In this document: piece by piece, positions 3,847-41,977 of the stretch | Numbering within the stretch: the stretch's first letter is position 1 | How the letters are laid out: every line of letters starts with the position of its first letter | Origin: Paraflavitalea pollutisoli | Lineage (GTDB): Bacteria > Bacteroidota > Bacteroidia > Chitinophagales > Chitinophagaceae | DNA: 64,000 nt | Reading direction: 5' to 3' | NCBI RefSeq assembly: GCF_029360705.1 | Contig: NZ_JARKMX010000003.1 | Span: 434,001-498,000 of the forward strand | The notes under the pieces: generated by a model | What the model was told of the DNA's origin: nothing | Seen by the model: only the letters and a program-made list of their open reading frames with translations | Databases searched by the model: none | Program-made: the position numbers and the translations under genes

Positions 3847-5118
3847 TCAAGGCGTAACGTTTGCAGTGCTGTTGCTGGCTTTTTCAGTGTTGCTTGCTGT
3901 GCTTAGTCTGGATACCATCAACACAAGCAACAATAGTTCGGGGATCGCTTTGTAACGCACGATGGCTCCCGGAAAAGGAACTACAAAACCAATCAGGAGG
4001 TAGTAGAGCACGCTGAAAAACAACGCCAGCCAATGCCATCGGGGCCCGGGGGCCTGCCATCTGTTTTTATTTCGCCTCACCAGCATGGCCACCAGCAACC
4101 CCCAAAAGAAGAGCACCTCCAATGCTGACAGGATTTGTAACGGTCCACGGGCTTCCCATACAAAAGGCCGCAGGAAGGCATTGGTGAATGCCTGGGGCAG
4201 CACCTGCAGGAAGCTGCCTGCATGGGGTGTTAGTTCCGACAGTGCGAACCGCGTATTACCTGTCAGCGACAGGAATGCCTGCTGCCGGTTGACGACGAGC
4301 TGCAAGGCATTGGGGATGCCCGTTATGTATGTACTGGCAACAACCAACAAGAGGGCGGCTCCATAGACGATCAGAAATGCGCGTACCGGACGATGTTGGC
4401 GCTTTGCAGACAGGTACCAGGCAAGCAGCCCCGGCAGGAGTACCAACAGCAATTCGTTTCTGAAAATAAAAATGCCCGTCAGGCAGATCAAGGCATAGAC
4501 CAATGATGCCGGCCGTTTCTCCTTCATCCATTTATCGCCCTGGTACAACAGGCCGGCGAAGCACAGGAATAACCATCCATCGGACCGGATGCCACTTAGC
4601 CAAAACAACACCGGCGGAAAGCCGAAAATGATGAAGAGTAGCCAGTTCCTGTTGCCGGCATATTCGCGCGTTGCTAACCGGTAAAGCAGGAAATGCCCCC
4701 AAAAGGTCAGGAAGCTGAAGAAAACCGCGTTGGCGTAATAGTTACCGCGTGTGAACAGGTTGGCGATCGCCAGCGTCTTTACCTGCAGGTGCCATTCGAG
4801 TTTGTCGATGTAGTAAGGCGCTGCGGAGGACAGGTTACCACCTGACTGTTTCCAGGCATTAATGGGTAACAAGTCTAGGAAGAACTGAACCGGTGTGGTG
4901 GTCAGTATCTTCCATTCTTCGAGTCCACCTGCATGGATCTCCCAGGTATCGTCGCCGTGGTAATACCGCAAAAAGATGTAGCCGTAGGCGCAGGCCAGCA
5001 GTGCCTTCAGGCCAAAGGCCAGCGTCACCTCGCCGATTGACAGGGTAGGGGTTGATCGCCGGGTTAACCGGACAATCAGGAAGGTAAACAGTAAAAAAAA
5101 CAATAACGTAATGACCAT
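3847..5118 (-). CDS. Polytopic membrane protein, probably surface-glycan assembly
   Basis: 423 residues with about ten hydrophobic segments, starting with an N-terminal one (MVITLLFFLLFTFLIVRL). An extracytoplasmic-looking loop near residues 55-65 holds acidic residues (YYHGDDTWEIH), reminiscent of the acidic first loop of GT-C-fold glycosyltransferases, but the family is not recognised with certainty. It lies divergently next to a glycosyltransferase and near hldD, so a role in lipopolysaccharide or other surface polysaccharide is inferred from context. ATG start. Alternatives are a polymerase-like or flippase-like membrane protein. Confidence 0.75.
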   Translation of the reverse strand: MVITLLFFLLFTFLIVRLTRRSTPTLSIGEVTLAFGLKALLACAYGYIFLRYYHGDDTWEIHAGGLEEWKILTTTPVQFFLDLLPINAWKQSGGNLSSAAPYYIDKLEWHLQVKTLAIANLFTRGNYYANAVFFSFLTFWGHFLLYRLATREYAGNRNWLLFIIFGFPPVLFWLSGIRSDGWLFLCFAGLLYQGDKWMKEKRPASLVYALICLTGIFIFRNELLLVLLPGLLAWYLSAKRQHRPVRAFLIVYGAALLLVVASTYITGIPNALQLVVNRQQAFLSLTGNTRFALSELTPHAGSFLQVLPQAFTNAFLRPFVWEARGPLQILSALEVLFFWGLLVAMLVRRNKNRWQAPGPRWHWLALFFSVLYYLLIGFVVPFPGAIVRYKAIPELLLLVLMVSRLSTASNTEKASNSTANVTP

Positions 5119-35671: not shown

Positions 35672-36969
35672 GTGGACAGCGTAGTTATGCTAGAAGATAT
35701 TTTAGACCGACGTAATATTGAAAAATCCCTTGTTCAGGTTGAAAAGAACAAGGGCGCCAGTGGCATCGACGAGATGACCTGGGATAGCTTACGTACCTAC
35801 GTCAGTAAAAACTGGCAGGTGTTACGGTCTGAGATTCTGGACGGCAAATATGTTTCCATGGCCGTAAAGGAAGTTGAGATTGACAAACCCCAGGGCGGTA
35901 AGAGAATTTTAGGGATACCTACGGTAGTAGACCGGATGATAGGTCAGGCTGTAGCGCAGTGGTTGACTTACCAGTTCGATAAAAACTTCTCGGAGCGAAG
36001 CTATGGCTTCCGCCCCCATCGCAGTGCTCATCACGCCGTTCTGCAGGCATATGAATATGTGAAGGAGGGAAAGGAATGGGTCATAGAGCTGGATCTGGAA
36101 AGCTTTTTCAACCGGATCAACCACGACAGGCTAATGAGCAGGCTGGCAAGCACTATTACGGACAAGCGAATACTTAAGCTAATCCGGGGGTTTCTCAGGA
36201 GCGGTATCATGGCGGGTGGAGTAATTAGTCCACGCCGTGAGGGTCCCCCCAAGGCTCCCCCTTAAGTCCGATACTTTCAAATATCGTATTGGACGAATTG
36301 GACAAGGAACTGGAGGGGCGAGGGTTATCATTTGTCAGATATGCAGACGATATAAGTATCTATGCAAGGAGTGAGACTGCCGCCAGGCGCATTCTAAGTA
36401 GCGTGACCCGTTACATTGAAAGAAAGCTACTGCTAAAGGTGAATCCGAAAAAGACCCGCCTTAGCCGCCCCGAAGATAGCAACCTGTTAGGCTTTTGCTT
36501 CCGCAAACCTAAAGGCGGATCCCAACAGTGGACAATAGTCATCGCCAGGGATAGTATCGTACGTGTAAAAGCTAAATGCAAGGAAATTACGCGACGCAAC
36601 AAAGCTTACTCTTTGGAGGAGCGTATCAGTAAACTGAACCAGTTACTTATAGGCTGGGTCAACTACTTCCTGATAGCTAGAGACTACCCGCCATTGGATC
36701 AACTAGATGGTACAGTCCGCTTCCGGCTGCGAATGTGTATATGGAAGGACTGGAAAACGCCCAGAACAAGAATGCAAAGACTTCTAAGGCTGGGTGCCAA
36801 CCGTCGCTCCGCTGCAGGGCACGGCCATAGTTACAAAAGCTATCACAGGATCGTCAATGGATGGACCGTTAAAATGGCCCTATCCAACGAATACTTCCAA
36901 AAAAACGGATACATAGGGTTCCGAAACCACCGCTATCATCAAACCGGAAAGCAGAAAAGTTTATTCTGA
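35672..36969 (+). pseudogene. Group II intron reverse transcriptase/maturase, one-base frameshift
   Basis: The first part (35672-36265, GTG start; ATG at 35687 also possible) contains VEKNKGASGIDEMTWDSL, the RT palm segment QGGKRILGIPTVVDRMIGQA, and ELDLESFFNRINHDRLM with the first catalytic Asp. The frame then breaks in a run of six C (36245-36250). Adding one C restores QGSPLSP and continues into the second part: VLDELDKELE, the catalytic YADD (36340-36351), and the maturase X domain and C-terminal region. There is no separate endonuclease domain, as usual for class C. The break is either a real inactivating deletion or a homopolymer base-call error; the rest looks undegraded. Confidence 0.88.
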
Positions 36970-37126: not shown

Positions 37127-37157
37127 CTGCACAGTTATCAGCCAAAACTGCACGGTT
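37127..37157 (+). repeat. Two direct repeats CTGCACRGTT, 21-bp period (candidate LytTR sites)
   Basis: CTGCACAGTT at 37127-37136 and CTGCACGGTT at 37148-37157, start to start exactly 21 bp, 126 bp upstream of the first FG-GAP gene. The same decamer occurs three times before the second FG-GAP gene. The -7 box of this gene is not clear (TATCTTGA at 37213-37220 is the nearest). Confidence 0.75.
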
Positions 37158-37282
37158 ATGCCCCGTTTCTACACGACGGCCAGTTCGGTCGGAAGGGTGT
37201 TGGTCGGTATAGTATCTTGAGTATGCTCCCGCTCTATTTTTCTTGGAACGGTGACGTATATAAAAGAATATCAAACTGACTT

Positions 37283-40200
37283 ATGAAGAAATTCTACCCC
37301 TTGATCCTGGTGCTGCTGTTGGCAGCACCCTGCTCTTTGCAAGCACAGCGTGCTACCCTGCATAGGCAGCAACGATGGAATGGTTCCAGCGCTTACCTGG
37401 CGGGATCGTTAGCCGTACAATTTTTCGCCGACAGCAAGCTGGTGAAACCGGTCGTCAACCAAAGCGGCATCGTAGATCGGGTTAAGCCTTCGAATACCCC
37501 TGCCAATCACTCCGATAGCAGGAATACCAGTAGCGGCAACGCTGTGTCGTCCATTGATCCGATGGATCCCGTGATCACTTCTTTTTCTCCAATGGCTGCG
37601 GCTTACCGTGACACGGTGATCATCAATGGCAGGAACTTTGTCAATGTAACAGACGTTATGTTTGCCGGACAATCCCCCATTTACCTAAAGGTTGTGAACG
37701 ACTCTACCATCATCACGGTGGTACCTACCACTACGTCTGGTAGCGTGATCGTGCAGACCGCCACAGGCTTTACCACGGCACCAGGCTTCACCTATATTCC
37801 TTACATTACTTTCGCACACCAACCATCATATGGACCTCCGGGCACGATCGTTACCATATCGGGTGGTCCTTTTAACCCAGATCCTGCTGCCAATAAAGTG
37901 TATTTCGGTGGGGTAGCAGCGGCAATACCTCTTACTGCCACAGGAGCAAAATTGACAGTAGCAGTACCTGTAGGGGCTGTGAGTGGAGAGATCAATGTAC
38001 GCGCAAATGGCTCCAGCGGCTATTCCTATCGTCATTTCTTAGTGACGGAATCTGGTGAAACGCCCGTTGAGCGGTTTAGATTTGCAAAAGCCACGGCTAT
38101 CGATTCCAGTAGTGACGCAAGAGGAGGTGTGGCTGCTGCTGATTTTGATGGTGACGGAAAAACGGATGTGGTATCCATTAATCGCCACACCAGTAAAGTA
38201 GCTATCTATCGGAATATCAGTGCCACCGCGCAAGTTGGCTTTGCTCCCAAACTCGAATTGCCGGTTGGCGGCTATCCGGTGGAGCTGATTGCTGGCGATG
38301 TTGATATGGACGGTAAGCCGGATATTATTGTTAAAACCATGCTGCCCGGCCAGATAGTTGTTTTTCGCAATACGAGCAGCGGAACCGCCATGTCTTTTGG
38401 TGCCGGGGTTTCCGTGGCGGCTTTTGTCAACAATACAGGCTTTCCCCCCTACTACGGCAGAAGAATGGCTATGAAAGATGTGGATGGTGATAGTAAACCT
38501 GATATTGTTTCCGTTAATGGCCAGCAGCGCTTTTCTGTGTTCAGGAATACCAGCTCACCGGGAGCTGTGAGTTTGGCTACCGGTATCGATATGCCTTGTG
38601 ACGCCTATGCCAGTACTGTGATCATGGAAGATTTGGATGGCGACCAAAAAGTAGACTTAGCAATCCTGAGCTCAGGAGCATTCTTTACCACCTTCAGAAA
38701 CAATGGCCTACCCGGTAGTATTTCATTCGTTGATCCCAAACATATCTCAGCGAGTGCGACCATTTTTAGTCTTACTGCTGGTGATTTCGATGGCGATGGT
38801 CAACTCGATCTGGCTGCCGCGACCATTGTCACCAGACGACTTACCTTATTTGCCAATACGTCGGTTGCCGGAAACATAACCTTTGCCCCAAAGATCGAGC
38901 GATCGTTGATCGACTACCCATTGTATATTGATAAGGGCGATTTTGACAACGATGGCAAACCCGATTGGTTGGTTCTGAATAGTCACAGTACCAAGAGCAT
39001 GGCTGTTTCTGCCAATCTGAGCACCCCCGGCAATATAGTCACATCGTTTGCCCAGGATGTGGAAGTGGGGTTAATATCGGAACAGTCGTTCATTGCCGAC
39101 CTAAATGGCGATGGGTTGCCAGACATATTGGCTGCAGATTATAATGGTAATGGATTGTTTTACATAAAAAATAACCTACAGGATCCGGTTATCAGTTCAT
39201 TTCATCCCTCCGCAGCAGAGACCGGTGATACCCTCACCATCAAGGGGCGGCATTTCGCAGGCGTAACGGGTGTACAATTCGGCGGTGTAACCGCAAGTAG
39301 CTTTATAGTGCTCAACGATACCACTATCCGCGCGGTGCTAGGCAATGGGGCATCTGGAAATGTGGTGGTATTTACTAACCAGGCACAGGCCGAAAAAGAC
39401 GGTTTTATTTTTGGGTTGCCACCGATGATCACTTCGTATACTCCAATAGCCGGACCTGCCGGCACCCCGGTTGCCATTGCAGGCAAAAGGTTTAGCCCGG
39501 TAACGACAGGAAACATTGTATACTTTGGAAGTGTACGGGCAACCGTTACAAACGCCACCGATTCCCTGTTACAGGTGATTGTGCCTGCCGGTGCTACCAA
39601 TCAATCGGTTACCGTGACGACAGGCGGAAAAACAGCCTATGCCACTCGTGGCTTCACCCTGACTTTTGCAGGGGGTAGTACCATCAGTCACCAATTATTC
39701 TCTGTGGATACTTCGATTGATTCTTATAGAGACCCCGGGCATGTCCTGATGGGCGACTTCAATAGCGACGGATTGAACGACCTCGTGACAACCAATAATA
39801 AAAACCAGGTTATGACGATGTTTACCAATCGGAGCAAACCTGATTATTCTTCTTTGATGTTGACGAACCTCCATTTATCAAGTGGTTACCCGACCAGCGT
39901 GGCTTTGGGTGACATGGACGGCGATGGTAAAATTGATGTTGTTTTTGGTACTACTCATTTTAAATCGATTGGTGTGTTGCGAAACAATACCACCCAGGAG
40001 TGGGTTGAATTTAATAATTCCGTTTTTGAACTGGAAGCTGGTACGGAGCCCTCGGCTGTCGCGGTTGCCGATCTGAACGGCGATGGTCGACCGGATATCG
40101 TAACGGCTTGCCCACAGGATAAGAAATTATTTATTCTGCTGAATAAGTCAACCATTGGTAAAATCTCTTTTCAACCAGCCATCACCCTCAATACCGGTTA

Positions 40201-41761
40201 CAGCCCCCGGATAGTAGCCGCCAGAGATATCAATGGCGATGGGATCACCGATCTGGTTGCAGCTGGTGACCAAGGTCATCTTACTTCATTCATCAATATT
40301 GTGAATGATAATGAACTGACTTTTGAAACACAGACTGCTCAATTCCCTGGGGGTAATATTACAAGTCTGACCGTTGGCGACATCGATGGTGATGGTAAAC
40401 CCGATATGTCGATCGGTAGGGATTCTTCAAATATCGTTACGATCCTGAAAAATAACAGTACCACCACACCAGTAGTACTGGCTGCCGCTTTACATATTCC
40501 TGTAACCGGTTGGGTCACTGCTATCACTATGGGCGATCTGAATGGAGATGCCAAAGAAGACCTGATAGTAAGTACAGGTAGCAAAGCCCTGGTATTGCTG
40601 GAAAATGCCAGCAGCCAGGCGTCGATCCAATACCTGGCGGCCGACACCCTGTTGTGTGGCGATAGTTCCCTTTATTGCACGGCTATCGGTGATTTCGACG
40701 GCGACGCGATCCCGGACATCGTGGCCGCCGATGGCGTGGCCAGGCGTTTGGTTATTATAAAGAACCGTATGGCACAAGGGCTTATTGTGGCATCGGGTAG
40801 CCATCCGGTCTCGGGCGCCATCATGAATTTCGTTACCATCGATCCTGTGGTGCAAACGCACCTGGGACAGGCTTATGTACAACGTCATTACGATATCACC
40901 CCGGTTAACAATGCTGCGACTGCCACGGCAACAATTACCTTGTATTTCACACAACAGGATTTTGACAACTACAATGCTCATACCGCTCATGGTTTGGACC
41001 TGCCGCATGGGCCAGCAGATGCCTTCAACAAAGCCAACTTGCGCGTATACAAATATCATGGTTTTAGCACGACGGGTAAACCTGCTAGTTATTCCGGCAA
41101 CGGTATCGAGATCGATCCGGATGATGCGAAGATTGTTTGGAATACGGTCACACAACAGTGGGAGGTGACCTTTGATGTCAATGGCTTCAGTGGCTTCTTT
41201 GTGTCTTCGGTCAACAGCGCCATGCTGCCCGTTACGCTGTTGTCTTTCACCGGCCAGGTAAAAGACGAGCAAGTATTGCTGCAATGGAAAACAACCGACC
41301 AGCTCAATGTGGCCAGGTTTGAACTGCAGCGGCGTGATCAGCATAGTGAGTTTGTGACCATTGCCCAGGTGAAACCGATCGGTAATCAGTTTGTCGTTGA
41401 CTACGATTATACCGACGCTCCACGAGAGGCTCCGGTCTATCAATACCGGTTGAAAATTGTCGACGAAGACCAGAGCGTGACCTACAGCCAGATCGTAACC
41501 GTGCGCAAAACTGGGGGCAGCCTGCCCCTCTCGCTGAGGCCCAATCCGGCTACCGATTTTGTGGTTGTACAACATGCTGTTTCGGATGGCAAGGCAATGA
41601 TCCGGATCGTTGACATGCACGGCAAAACCATTCGTTCGGTACGCATCGGCGCCAACCAGCTTCAAACCCGCTTGCCCCTGGCTGGCATTCCCAAGGGCCC
41701 CTATACTTTGGCCCTGGAGCAGGGTGGAGAAAGGTTGAGCCAGCTGTTGATCGTCCGCTAA
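37283..41761 (+). CDS. Giant FG-GAP/IPT surface protein with T9SS sorting domain (paralogue 1)
   Basis: 1492 residues. Signal peptide MKKFYPLILVLLLAAPCSLQ, cleaved after AQ. Domain order: two IPT/TIG domains (about 93-255), FG-GAP/VCBS beta-propeller repeats with calcium-type motifs such as DFDGDGKTD and DVDMDGKPD (about 270-630), two further IPT domains (633-800), a second FG-GAP block (815-1170), a module of about 120 residues beginning GQAYVQRHYDITP and ending FSGFFVSS (1191-1309), a fibronectin-like part and a T9SS type A sorting domain (from about 1415, SLRPNPATDF). It is exported to the cell surface; ligand unknown, calcium-stabilised adhesion or glycan binding is inferred. The next gene is a close paralogue. 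Confidence 0.9.
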   Translation: MKKFYPLILVLLLAAPCSLQAQRATLHRQQRWNGSSAYLAGSLAVQFFADSKLVKPVVNQSGIVDRVKPSNTPANHSDSRNTSSGNAVSSIDPMDPVITSFSPMAAAYRDTVIINGRNFVNVTDVMFAGQSPIYLKVVNDSTIITVVPTTTSGSVIVQTATGFTTAPGFTYIPYITFAHQPSYGPPGTIVTISGGPFNPDPAANKVYFGGVAAAIPLTATGAKLTVAVPVGAVSGEINVRANGSSGYSYRHFLVTESGETPVERFRFAKATAIDSSSDARGGVAAADFDGDGKTDVVSINRHTSKVAIYRNISATAQVGFAPKLELPVGGYPVELIAGDVDMDGKPDIIVKTMLPGQIVVFRNTSSGTAMSFGAGVSVAAFVNNTGFPPYYGRRMAMKDVDGDSKPDIVSVNGQQRFSVFRNTSSPGAVSLATGIDMPCDAYASTVIMEDLDGDQKVDLAILSSGAFFTTFRNNGLPGSISFVDPKHISASATIFSLTAGDFDGDGQLDLAAATIVTRRLTLFANTSVAGNITFAPKIERSLIDYPLYIDKGDFDNDGKPDWLVLNSHSTKSMAVSANLSTPGNIVTSFAQDVEVGLISEQSFIADLNGDGLPDILAADYNGNGLFYIKNNLQDPVISSFHPSAAETGDTLTIKGRHFAGVTGVQFGGVTASSFIVLNDTTIRAVLGNGASGNVVVFTNQAQAEKDGFIFGLPPMITSYTPIAGPAGTPVAIAGKRFSPVTTGNIVYFGSVRATVTNATDSLLQVIVPAGATNQSVTVTTGGKTAYATRGFTLTFAGGSTISHQLFSVDTSIDSYRDPGHVLMGDFNSDGLNDLVTTNNKNQVMTMFTNRSKPDYSSLMLTNLHLSSGYPTSVALGDMDGDGKIDVVFGTTHFKSIGVLRNNTTQEWVEFNNSVFELEAGTEPSAVAVADLNGDGRPDIVTACPQDKKLFILLNKSTIGKISFQPAITLNTGYSPRIVAARDINGDGITDLVAAGDQGHLTSFINIVNDNELTFETQTAQFPGGNITSLTVGDIDGDGKPDMSIGRDSSNIVTILKNNSTTTPVVLAAALHIPVTGWVTAITMGDLNGDAKEDLIVSTGSKALVLLENASSQASIQYLAADTLLCGDSSLYCTAIGDFDGDAIPDIVAADGVARRLVIIKNRMAQGLIVASGSHPVSGAIMNFVTIDPVVQTHLGQAYVQRHYDITPVNNAATATATITLYFTQQDFDNYNAHTAHGLDLPHGPADAFNKANLRVYKYHGFSTTGKPASYSGNGIEIDPDDAKIVWNTVTQQWEVTFDVNGFSGFFVSSVNSAMLPVTLLSFTGQVKDEQVLLQWKTTDQLNVARFELQRRDQHSEFVTIAQVKPIGNQFVVDYDYTDAPREAPVYQYRLKIVDEDQSVTYSQIVTVRKTGGSLPLSLRPNPATDFVVVQHAVSDGKAMIRIVDMHGKTIRSVRIGANQLQTRLPLAGIPKGPYTLALEQGGERLSQLLIVR

Positions 41762-41777
41762 AAAAATACCATATTTT

Positions 41778-41818
41778 AAAGCCCCGTTCTGCAAACCTCC
41801 AGGAAGGGGCTTTTTTTG
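41778..41818 (+). terminator. Terminator behind FG-GAP gene 1
   Basis: Stem AAAGCCCC (41778-41785) with GGGGCTTT (41806-41813), then T run. It separates the two paralogues, so each has its own transcript. Confidence 0.85.
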
Positions 41819-41884
41819 TTGACCAAGCGATCGTGCATACCGCCGCGCTTAAGTGGCCTCTGTGTGATGTTTTTCACGCGATGT

Positions 41885-41936
41885 CTGCACGGTTAACCAC
41901 CAAAACTGCACAGTTTTGCCTCAATTCTGCACAGTT
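41885..41936 (+). repeat. Three direct repeats CTGCACRGTT, 21-bp period (candidate LytTR sites)
   Basis: CTGCACGGTT at 41885-41894, CTGCACAGTT at 41906-41915 and 41927-41936; both steps are exactly 21 bp. The last copy ends 10 bp before the -33 TTG of the promoter at 41947-41977, a normal activator position. Confidence 0.8.
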
Positions 41937-41946
41937 GTCGGTTTGC

Positions 41947-41977
41947 TTGCATGAAAAGCTGCTGATTTTTATATTTG
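41947..41977 (+). promoter_or_regulatory. Promoter of FG-GAP gene 2
   Basis: TTG (41947-41949), 20-bp spacer, TATATTTG (41970-41977): a full match to the Bacteroidota consensus, 43 bp before the ATG. Confidence 0.7.

Follow-up and report, generated by a model that had tools for sequence, protein, structure and literature searches.

Two neighbouring genes for FG-GAP proteins in Paraflavitalea pollutisoli are each headed by the same short direct repeats, and the question raised by this locus is whether, and by which regulator, both genes might be controlled together. The window analysed, i.e., the whole stretch of 64,000 nucleotides (G000:C11:434001-498000, from a genome, G000, of 8.76 Mb in 16 contigs), contains exact copies of CTGCACRGTT at 37127 and 37148 ahead of the first gene and at 41885, 41906 and 41927 ahead of the second, with successive copies within each group 21 bp apart. 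All five lie where a first-pass annotation of this DNA had placed them. That annotation had taken them for LytTR-type sites through which one regulator, encoded outside the window, would co-control both genes; it overlooked a third repeat unit, the spread of such arrays across the family, small-RNA-like targets and a likely regulator. Here we propose, with a probability of roughly 0.78, that the repeats represent a pair of operators belonging to a regulon that would be governed by a LytTR regulator from a single clade (clade X), paired with a Reg_prop-type sensor, and would comprise secreted or surface proteins as well as small RNAs (sRNAs).

Repeat arrays and the genes behind them

Exact CTGCACRGTT occurs seven times in the window, the remaining two copies (2723 and 29676) being solitary and on the minus strand. 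When sites were read in register, the repeat unit turned out to be the full 21 bp, as a GCCAAA(A/T)-like spacer is conserved too, and alignment in register showed that three units per array are usual, not two, with GGTTTG as the usual end of the last one. The array of paralogue 1 consists of two good units and a decayed third at 37169-37189 (CTACACGACG...); the earlier count of two plus three copies is therefore correct for exact decamers but not for units, since paralogue 1 keeps this degenerate third unit. The two proteins encoded behind the arrays share 36% identity across 1144 aligned positions, and in both the Por_Secre_tail score is above the Pfam cut-off. A group II intron-like element extends from window position 35672 to about 37047, ending, as judged by eye, about 80 bp upstream of array 1, and its reverse transcriptase/maturase is split into reading frames 35672-36265 and 36289-36969.

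In the P. pollutisoli genome, the CTGCACRGTT pair with up to two mismatches gave 10 matches and the more relaxed CTGCACRSTT-N11-CTGCACRSTT with up to three mismatches gave 36, several of the three-mismatch matches looking chance-like by eye. Chance pairing as a general explanation was rejected because both patterns read backwards gave no match and because, with a free gap of 2-32 bases, the period was exactly 21 bp in seven of nine TGCACNNTT pairs (the reversed control yielded a single pair). A profile (A1, R1) built from 15 sites of this genome, with which 150 of 1813 first-look candidates were scored, detected 19 arrays at 29-66 bits, 15 of them being the training sites; the next match reached 16.9 bits. 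Arrays were present in all five genomes of the genus that were searched (G000-G004), giving 62 matches down to 19 bits (19 in P. pollutisoli and 43 in the others), of which the 49 with at least 40 bits are referred to as strong. Their consensus reads CTGCACAcTTATcg.CcAAAA / CTGCACACTTAT.ggccaAAa / CTGCACAcTTAt.GGTTTG and is followed, about 23 bases past the array, by a -7-like ttTatTT peak; by eye, a -7-like box was seen in most of 16 registered sites, not in all (it is absent in L008).

Strong arrays lie mostly before gene starts: in 41 of 49 cases a gene of 100 codons or more begins within 400 bp downstream and runs in the same direction, whereas the mirror case, a divergent gene within 400 bp upstream, was found for nine. 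Under a stricter rule, by which the first gene behind the array must lie within 400 bp and reach 60 codons, 39 strong arrays head a gene, and the remaining 10 are followed by sRNA-A (five), by sRNA-B (two), or by a farther or misread first gene (three). By a crude hydrophobicity test, signal-peptide-like starts were found in 26 of the 39 first genes versus 104 of the 335 remaining genes of these loci (Fisher p 2.4e-5), and exported-type products are thus enriched across the five genomes, in line with the surface-protein targets envisaged by the first-pass annotation. Recurrent first genes encode a laminin-G-like protein (Pfam for one member, blastp for the others), a roughly 780-residue protein at the head of operons whose third gene is giant, and a roughly 490-residue protein, one operon of this last type ending in a DUF6443/RHS-repeat gene. 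Other array targets are a CBM96/PKD protein with a type IX tail just below the cut-off and a SUKH/SMI1 immunity-like gene (L098:10238-10834), which has its own array 58 bp upstream and a second array about 3 kb off. Two array-headed operons of P. pollutisoli (G000:C15:2039084 and 2049423), with a DUF6443/RHS-repeat gene between them, lie 10 kb apart, and the 497 bases behind their arrays are 92% identical, which looks like a recent tandem duplication.

The FG-GAP pair itself is located between an EF-G-type gene and a gene for a DPP IV-like peptidase, upstream of the gene for ribosomal protein S10. In the four other genomes of the genus the same flanks enclose an array with different cargo, namely a 191-residue protein plus sRNA-B in G003 and sRNA-B alone in G001, G002 and G004, indicating that the operator position is shared while the payload varies. 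Strong matches to sRNA-B (134-160 bits) were obtained only in G001-G004; 18 of the 39 genomes searched had any match, the weaker ones (at most 36 bits) occurring in unrelated genomes, and P. pollutisoli had no strong match, its best scoring 32 bits. In three genomes sRNA-B lies behind the array, but in G003 it lies behind the gene and, by eye, behind a promoter of its own, and it was therefore not counted as a regular target.

A LytTR clade as candidate regulator

A first comparison within the genus had suggested a genus-only system, which was overturned when a scan of the family revealed arrays in 22 of 294 genomes and 11 of 101 genera. As 17 array candidates and nine clade X candidates were scored per genome in the family scans, the per-genome counts are lower bounds; both scans presumably covered the same 294 genomes, as their counts agree and the genome labels are shared. 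In two genomes with a single array match, G180 and G178, the array adjoins a LytTR gene, and among 65 relatives in the P. pollutisoli genome, which has 66 LytTR domains, the top two for these proteins were C15:123039 and C1:485532. In a tree of 74 LytTR proteins (63 from P. pollutisoli; two of 76 rows were left out by length), these proteins fell into one clade with a support of 100/99, in a bootstrap that had not fully settled, and C15:123039 and C1:485532 were its only P. pollutisoli members. We refer to it as clade X.

Using a profile of 11 clade members (A4) and a cut-off of 330 bits, which is a choice as no sharp gap exists there, clade X was detected in 40 of 294 family genomes and in 20 of the 22 array-positive ones (Fisher p 5.6e-18, kinship ignored). 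By genus, it occurred in nine of 11 array-positive genera versus 16 of 101 overall (p 2.6e-7). Between cut-offs of 320 and 380 bits, 14-20 of the 22 array-positive genomes carry clade X, and when the profile-donor genomes were set aside, it was present in 14 of 15 by our own tally. The two genomes that miss it by cut-off are G178, where the gene is cut by a contig end, and G242.

Also, arrays lie directly behind some clade X genes. This was the case at seven of 31 clade X loci versus none of 64 control LytTR loci (Fisher p 2.4e-4). At eight of the 31 loci a two-unit match scored higher than the control maximum of 6.8. Seven of these matches (L309, L315, L308, L305, L304, L322, L319) share the strand of the LytTR gene and start no more than about 120 bp behind it, three of the seven coming from one genus (g122). 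The eighth, L324, is located elsewhere, and weaker matches behind the clade X gene were seen at L317 and L326.

The genes around clade X point to a two-component system. Pfam identified a response regulator and a partner kinase for the C15 genes of P. pollutisoli and for the G180 pair, as well as the regulator at C1; the partner sensor is of the Reg_prop/Y_Y_Y/His_kinase type, and tblastn found homologues of the C15 kinase beside nine further clade X genes and at L214. Each of the five genomes of the genus has a C1:485532-like gene (orthology was tested by tree for G000 and G001), and of 12 further loci examined, 10 have lpxD next to the clade X gene, including the C1 locus of P. pollutisoli and the array-rich genera g3 and g94.

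Several observations weigh against this assignment. Five of the 22 array-positive genomes (G031, G110, G218, G242, G282) rest on one match below 25 bits, one of them, G242 (24.2 bits), having no clade X member, and in 20 of the 40 clade X genomes the model detects no array. Genomes of the same genus are not independent, which the Fisher values ignore. The control LytTR loci come from the P. pollutisoli genome only, the adjacent array at L319 scores 7.6 and so barely exceeds the control maximum, and L304 and L305 among the seven were known before the adjacency scan, as L317 had likewise been seen earlier. Our crude gene finder, a simple longest-frame rule, places eight of the 49 strong arrays within a reading frame, and in P. 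pollutisoli alone the signal-peptide rule was passed by only seven of 15 first genes, several of those failing it appearing exported by eye. Finally, arrays of the genus show no enrichment of LytTR genes nearby (four of 62 loci versus about six by chance, a rough estimate), the four genes forming one orthologue group in four of five genomes. LytTR-gene proximity within the genus was therefore dropped as proof, and co-occurrence was tested instead. LytTR genes near other sites thus showed no excess within the genus but were seen at clade X loci elsewhere.

Given the co-occurrence and the adjacency, co-control by a LytTR regulator encoded outside the window is the likeliest reading. In this respect the original prediction is supported, whereas a single regulator shared by both genes is less certain, as P. 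pollutisoli has two clade X members. It is conceivable, though doubtful, that these two paralogues split the arrays between them, in which case the FG-GAP genes need not share a regulator. Such a division would agree with the occurrence of two clade X genes each in G000, G002, G003 and G004 and with the two half-site flavours, CACAGTTAT and CACACTTAT, found among arrays of the genus. However, G001 (93% complete) shows no orthologue of C15:123039, its best match being 52% identical and grouping with C1:485532, and yet it carries the same arrays; moreover, all five good units of the window are of the CACRGTT flavour.

Small-RNA-like stretches behind arrays

Each of the five genomes of the genus has one array pointing at the 3' end of a convergently oriented RNase E/G gene (identified by Pfam for the P. 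pollutisoli copy), and no conserved reading frame was found between array and gene in any of the five. What is conserved there is a stretch of about 80 nucleotides, sRNA-A, with 31 identical bases in a row and a terminator-like hairpin in five genomes whose flanks are mostly unalignable. A model (R2) found sRNA-A once in each genome of the genus and in none of 34 other genomes. Diverged copies lie behind arrays at the RNase E/G gene in two other genera, G200 (found by pattern) and G311 (found by eye, the pattern having missed it), neither genus having been among the 34 genomes. The exact 20-base core matched two records of a genome collection, Paraflavitalea sp. CAU 1676 and a Niastella metagenome-assembled genome, in a search that may leave out records near P. 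pollutisoli.

A similar arrangement exists at clade X loci. In g122 genomes (L308, L309, L315) a conserved, terminator-ended stretch reaches from the array behind the LytTR gene to a convergent lpxD gene, and at L309, L315, L308, L305, L304 and L317 codirectional frames behind the array have at most about 70 codons before the hairpin, the terminator call for the L305 hairpin being on the opposite strand only. Behind the L322 array there is a 266-codon frame, and L319 is ambiguous.

The conserved, terminator-ended stretches that lack a protein gene behind some arrays are probably small RNAs. That they are instead short leaders or decayed genes seems unlikely to us, although several results would agree with it: the stretches are known from sequence, the alignments contain no base pair preserved by compensatory changes in both strands of a stem, sRNA-A showed no excess of predicted pairing with the beginnings of 49 first genes (mean z 0.03), and Rfam gave no match for eight sRNA-like loci at the gathering score and, for 11 loci at E up to 0.05, a 16S rRNA fragment as sole match. 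Leaders or gene remnants would hardly be expected to keep a terminator-like hairpin and a 31-base identical run across five genomes while the flanks became mostly unalignable, or to face the convergent RNase E/G 3' end with diverged copies at the same gene in two other genera. Coordinates of all features are listed in Table 1.

Table 1. Features of the window (positions given without prefix) and related features elsewhere.
Feature	Position	Strand	Basis or remark
Array 1, unit 1 (CTGCACAGTTATCAGCCAAAA)	37127..37147	+	pattern match, register
Array 1, unit 2 (CTGCACGGTTATGCCCCGTTT)	37148..37168	+	pattern match, register
Array 1, degenerate unit 3 (CTACACGACGGCCAGTTCGGT)	37169..37189	+	register; profile match over model positions 2-67, array 1 site being in the profile's training set
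Candidate -7 element TATCTTG, paralogue 1	37213..37219	+	by eye; where other arrays show the -7-like peak
Target 1: FG-GAP/TIG protein, type IX secretion tail (Por_Secre_tail), 1492 residues	37283..41761	+	Pfam
Array 2, unit 1 (CTGCACGGTTAACCACCAAAA)	41885..41905	+	pattern match, register
Array 2, unit 2 (CTGCACAGTTTTGCCTCAATT)	41906..41926	+	pattern match, register
Array 2, unit 3 (CTGCACAGTTGTCGGTTTGCT)	41927..41947	+	includes conserved GGTTTG 41940-41945
Candidate -7 element TATATTTG, paralogue 2	41970..41977	+	TTG 41947-41949, N20; consensus peak
Target 2: FG-GAP/TIG protein, type IX secretion tail, 1441 residues	42021..46346	+	Pfam
Clade X member 1, P. pollutisoli	C1:485532-486275		beside lpxD gene; outside window
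Clade X member 2, P. pollutisoli	C15:123039-123809		beside another array; outside window
sRNA-A (putative), P. pollutisoli	L097:7146-7227 = G000:C1:643145-643226		conserved, directly behind array, beside RNase E/G gene
sRNA-B copies (putative)	L149:4197-4327, L162:7896-8025, L166:7869-7997, L177 near 4820-4950		sequence conservation

Regulator class and relation to known LytTR circuits

LytTR sites are described as repeats of 9-11 nucleotides with spacers of 11-13 nucleotides, as for the response regulators YpdB and BtsR/YehT of Escherichia coli (PMC4847170), and the array period of 21 bp (9 + 12) falls within this geometry. YpdB has two sites and one target gene (PMC4847170), whereas here three sites are usual and 19 arrays exist in the P. 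pollutisoli genome. Operators of three direct repeats with 12-13 bp spacing are described for the LytTR proteins RcoM and CoxC; unlike the system proposed here, CoxC senses carbon monoxide via its own sensor domain (PMC11347149), and the half-site TTNNNGCN is unrelated. In LytTR Regulatory Systems (LRS) such as BrsRM and HdrRM half-sites such as ACCACTTAT and ACCGCTTAT, mostly with a 12-bp spacer, are located just upstream of the promoter (PMC6193735), which is where the arrays lie relative to the promoter-like -7 peak, so that their placement appears to fit published LytTR operators. CACACTTAT and the LRS half-site ACCACTTAT are identical at seven of nine positions, whereas two Bacteroides rows of the same paper have half-sites unlike the arrays (TCCGGTATTCA type); LRS also differ in consisting of a regulator and a membrane inhibitor and in autoregulating, in contrast to the response regulator with kinase considered here (PMC6193735).

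With a matrix of 38 published half-sites (19 of 25 rows, those for SMU_294, Roseburia, one Chlamydia row, Thermoplasmatales and both Bacteroides being dropped), unit positions 4-12 (CACACTTAT) were the best of 21 registers, with a mean of 1.38 versus -5.98 for the next. With all 25 rows, where one 8-letter half was omitted and 11-letter halves were cut to 9, the same register scored 2.03 versus -4.62. By column shuffle this likeness is borderline (P 0.052 for 19 rows and 0.059 for 25 rows), which counts against the assignment, and it backs the LytTR class only moderately.

AraC-family half-sites likewise recur at 21 bp, and Bacteroidota commonly have hybrid sensors that contain AraC domains. 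A regulator of the AraC type, or one with another helix-turn-helix domain, might thus bind the arrays, as the period alone fits both classes, the GCCAAA-like spacer is more conserved than a bare LytTR half-site requires, the half-site match is no better than borderline and one array (C15:2819648) is located 690 bp from an AraC-type gene. We nevertheless regard this as quite improbable, because arrays track one LytTR clade, in a co-occurrence test run for LytTR only, and lie directly behind genes of that same clade. The identification as LytTR-type sites, already made in the first-pass annotation, is supported by the 9 + 12 bp geometry, by co-occurrence with a single clade and by arrays behind its genes in other genera. 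That the arrays are part of a mobile or repetitive element landing before genes, as their many copies per genome and patchy distribution across the family might suggest, can practically be dismissed, since matches between loci in the 500 bp downstream are nearly all among related targets, arrays are oriented towards the next gene (41 vs 9 of 49), the -7-like peak lies at a near-constant distance, and five genomes retain arrays at the RNase E/G and fusA-DPP IV positions despite diverged flanks.

Starting from the arrays, positions, co-occurrence, adjacency and terminator-ended stretches observed, binding, activation, signal, and transcription and function of the RNAs may be pictured as follows. 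The Reg_prop kinase would phosphorylate the clade X regulator, which would bind the row of three head-to-tail 21-bp sites on one helix face and activate at the -7 box; as the operator ends at a near-constant distance from the -7-like box, the bound protein could touch RNA polymerase. Predicted targets are operons for secreted or surface proteins (type IX tails, laminin-G-like, FG-GAP, RHS-related) plus one or more conserved small RNAs, and the circuit would thus probably act both at promoters and via an sRNA. We lean, with some reserve, towards viewing this as a Chitinophagaceae LytTR circuit of the AgrA-RNAIII/VirR kind, in which a three-site operator would drive one or more sRNAs, located beside the RNase E/G gene or, in other genera, directly behind the LytTR gene, together with variable surface, type IX-secreted and RHS-related proteins swapped behind fixed operators.

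VirR and RgaR are regulators of the LytTR class. In C. difficile, RgaR activates spoZ, an sRNA gene, via direct repeats whose critical bases, at -51 and -72, are 21 bp apart, as is the array period here, and AgrA and VirR also control sRNAs (PMC10602386). The system proposed here would resemble AgrA-RNAIII, VirR-VR-RNA and RgaR-spoZ in combining a response regulator, a partner kinase and direct repeats, and in having among its direct targets an sRNA, here putative and in some genera directly behind the LytTR gene. It would differ from them in its occurrence in Bacteroidota, its TAnnTTTG-like -7 box, its three-unit operator, its Reg_prop sensor kinase and its secreted and surface-protein targets.

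In the literature searched, which mostly did not extend to subscription papers, no LytTR regulon was described for Chitinophagaceae, and LytTR regulons of Bacteroidota in general seem to be hardly described. By analogy, the circuit would be the Bacteroidota counterpart of the RgaR/AgrA/VirR-sRNA systems. Because the operator is defined, candidate regulators are named and one target resembles an sRNA, the whole circuit could be put to the test, and in a genome that has 66 LytTR domains the array would serve to mark surface-protein regulons.

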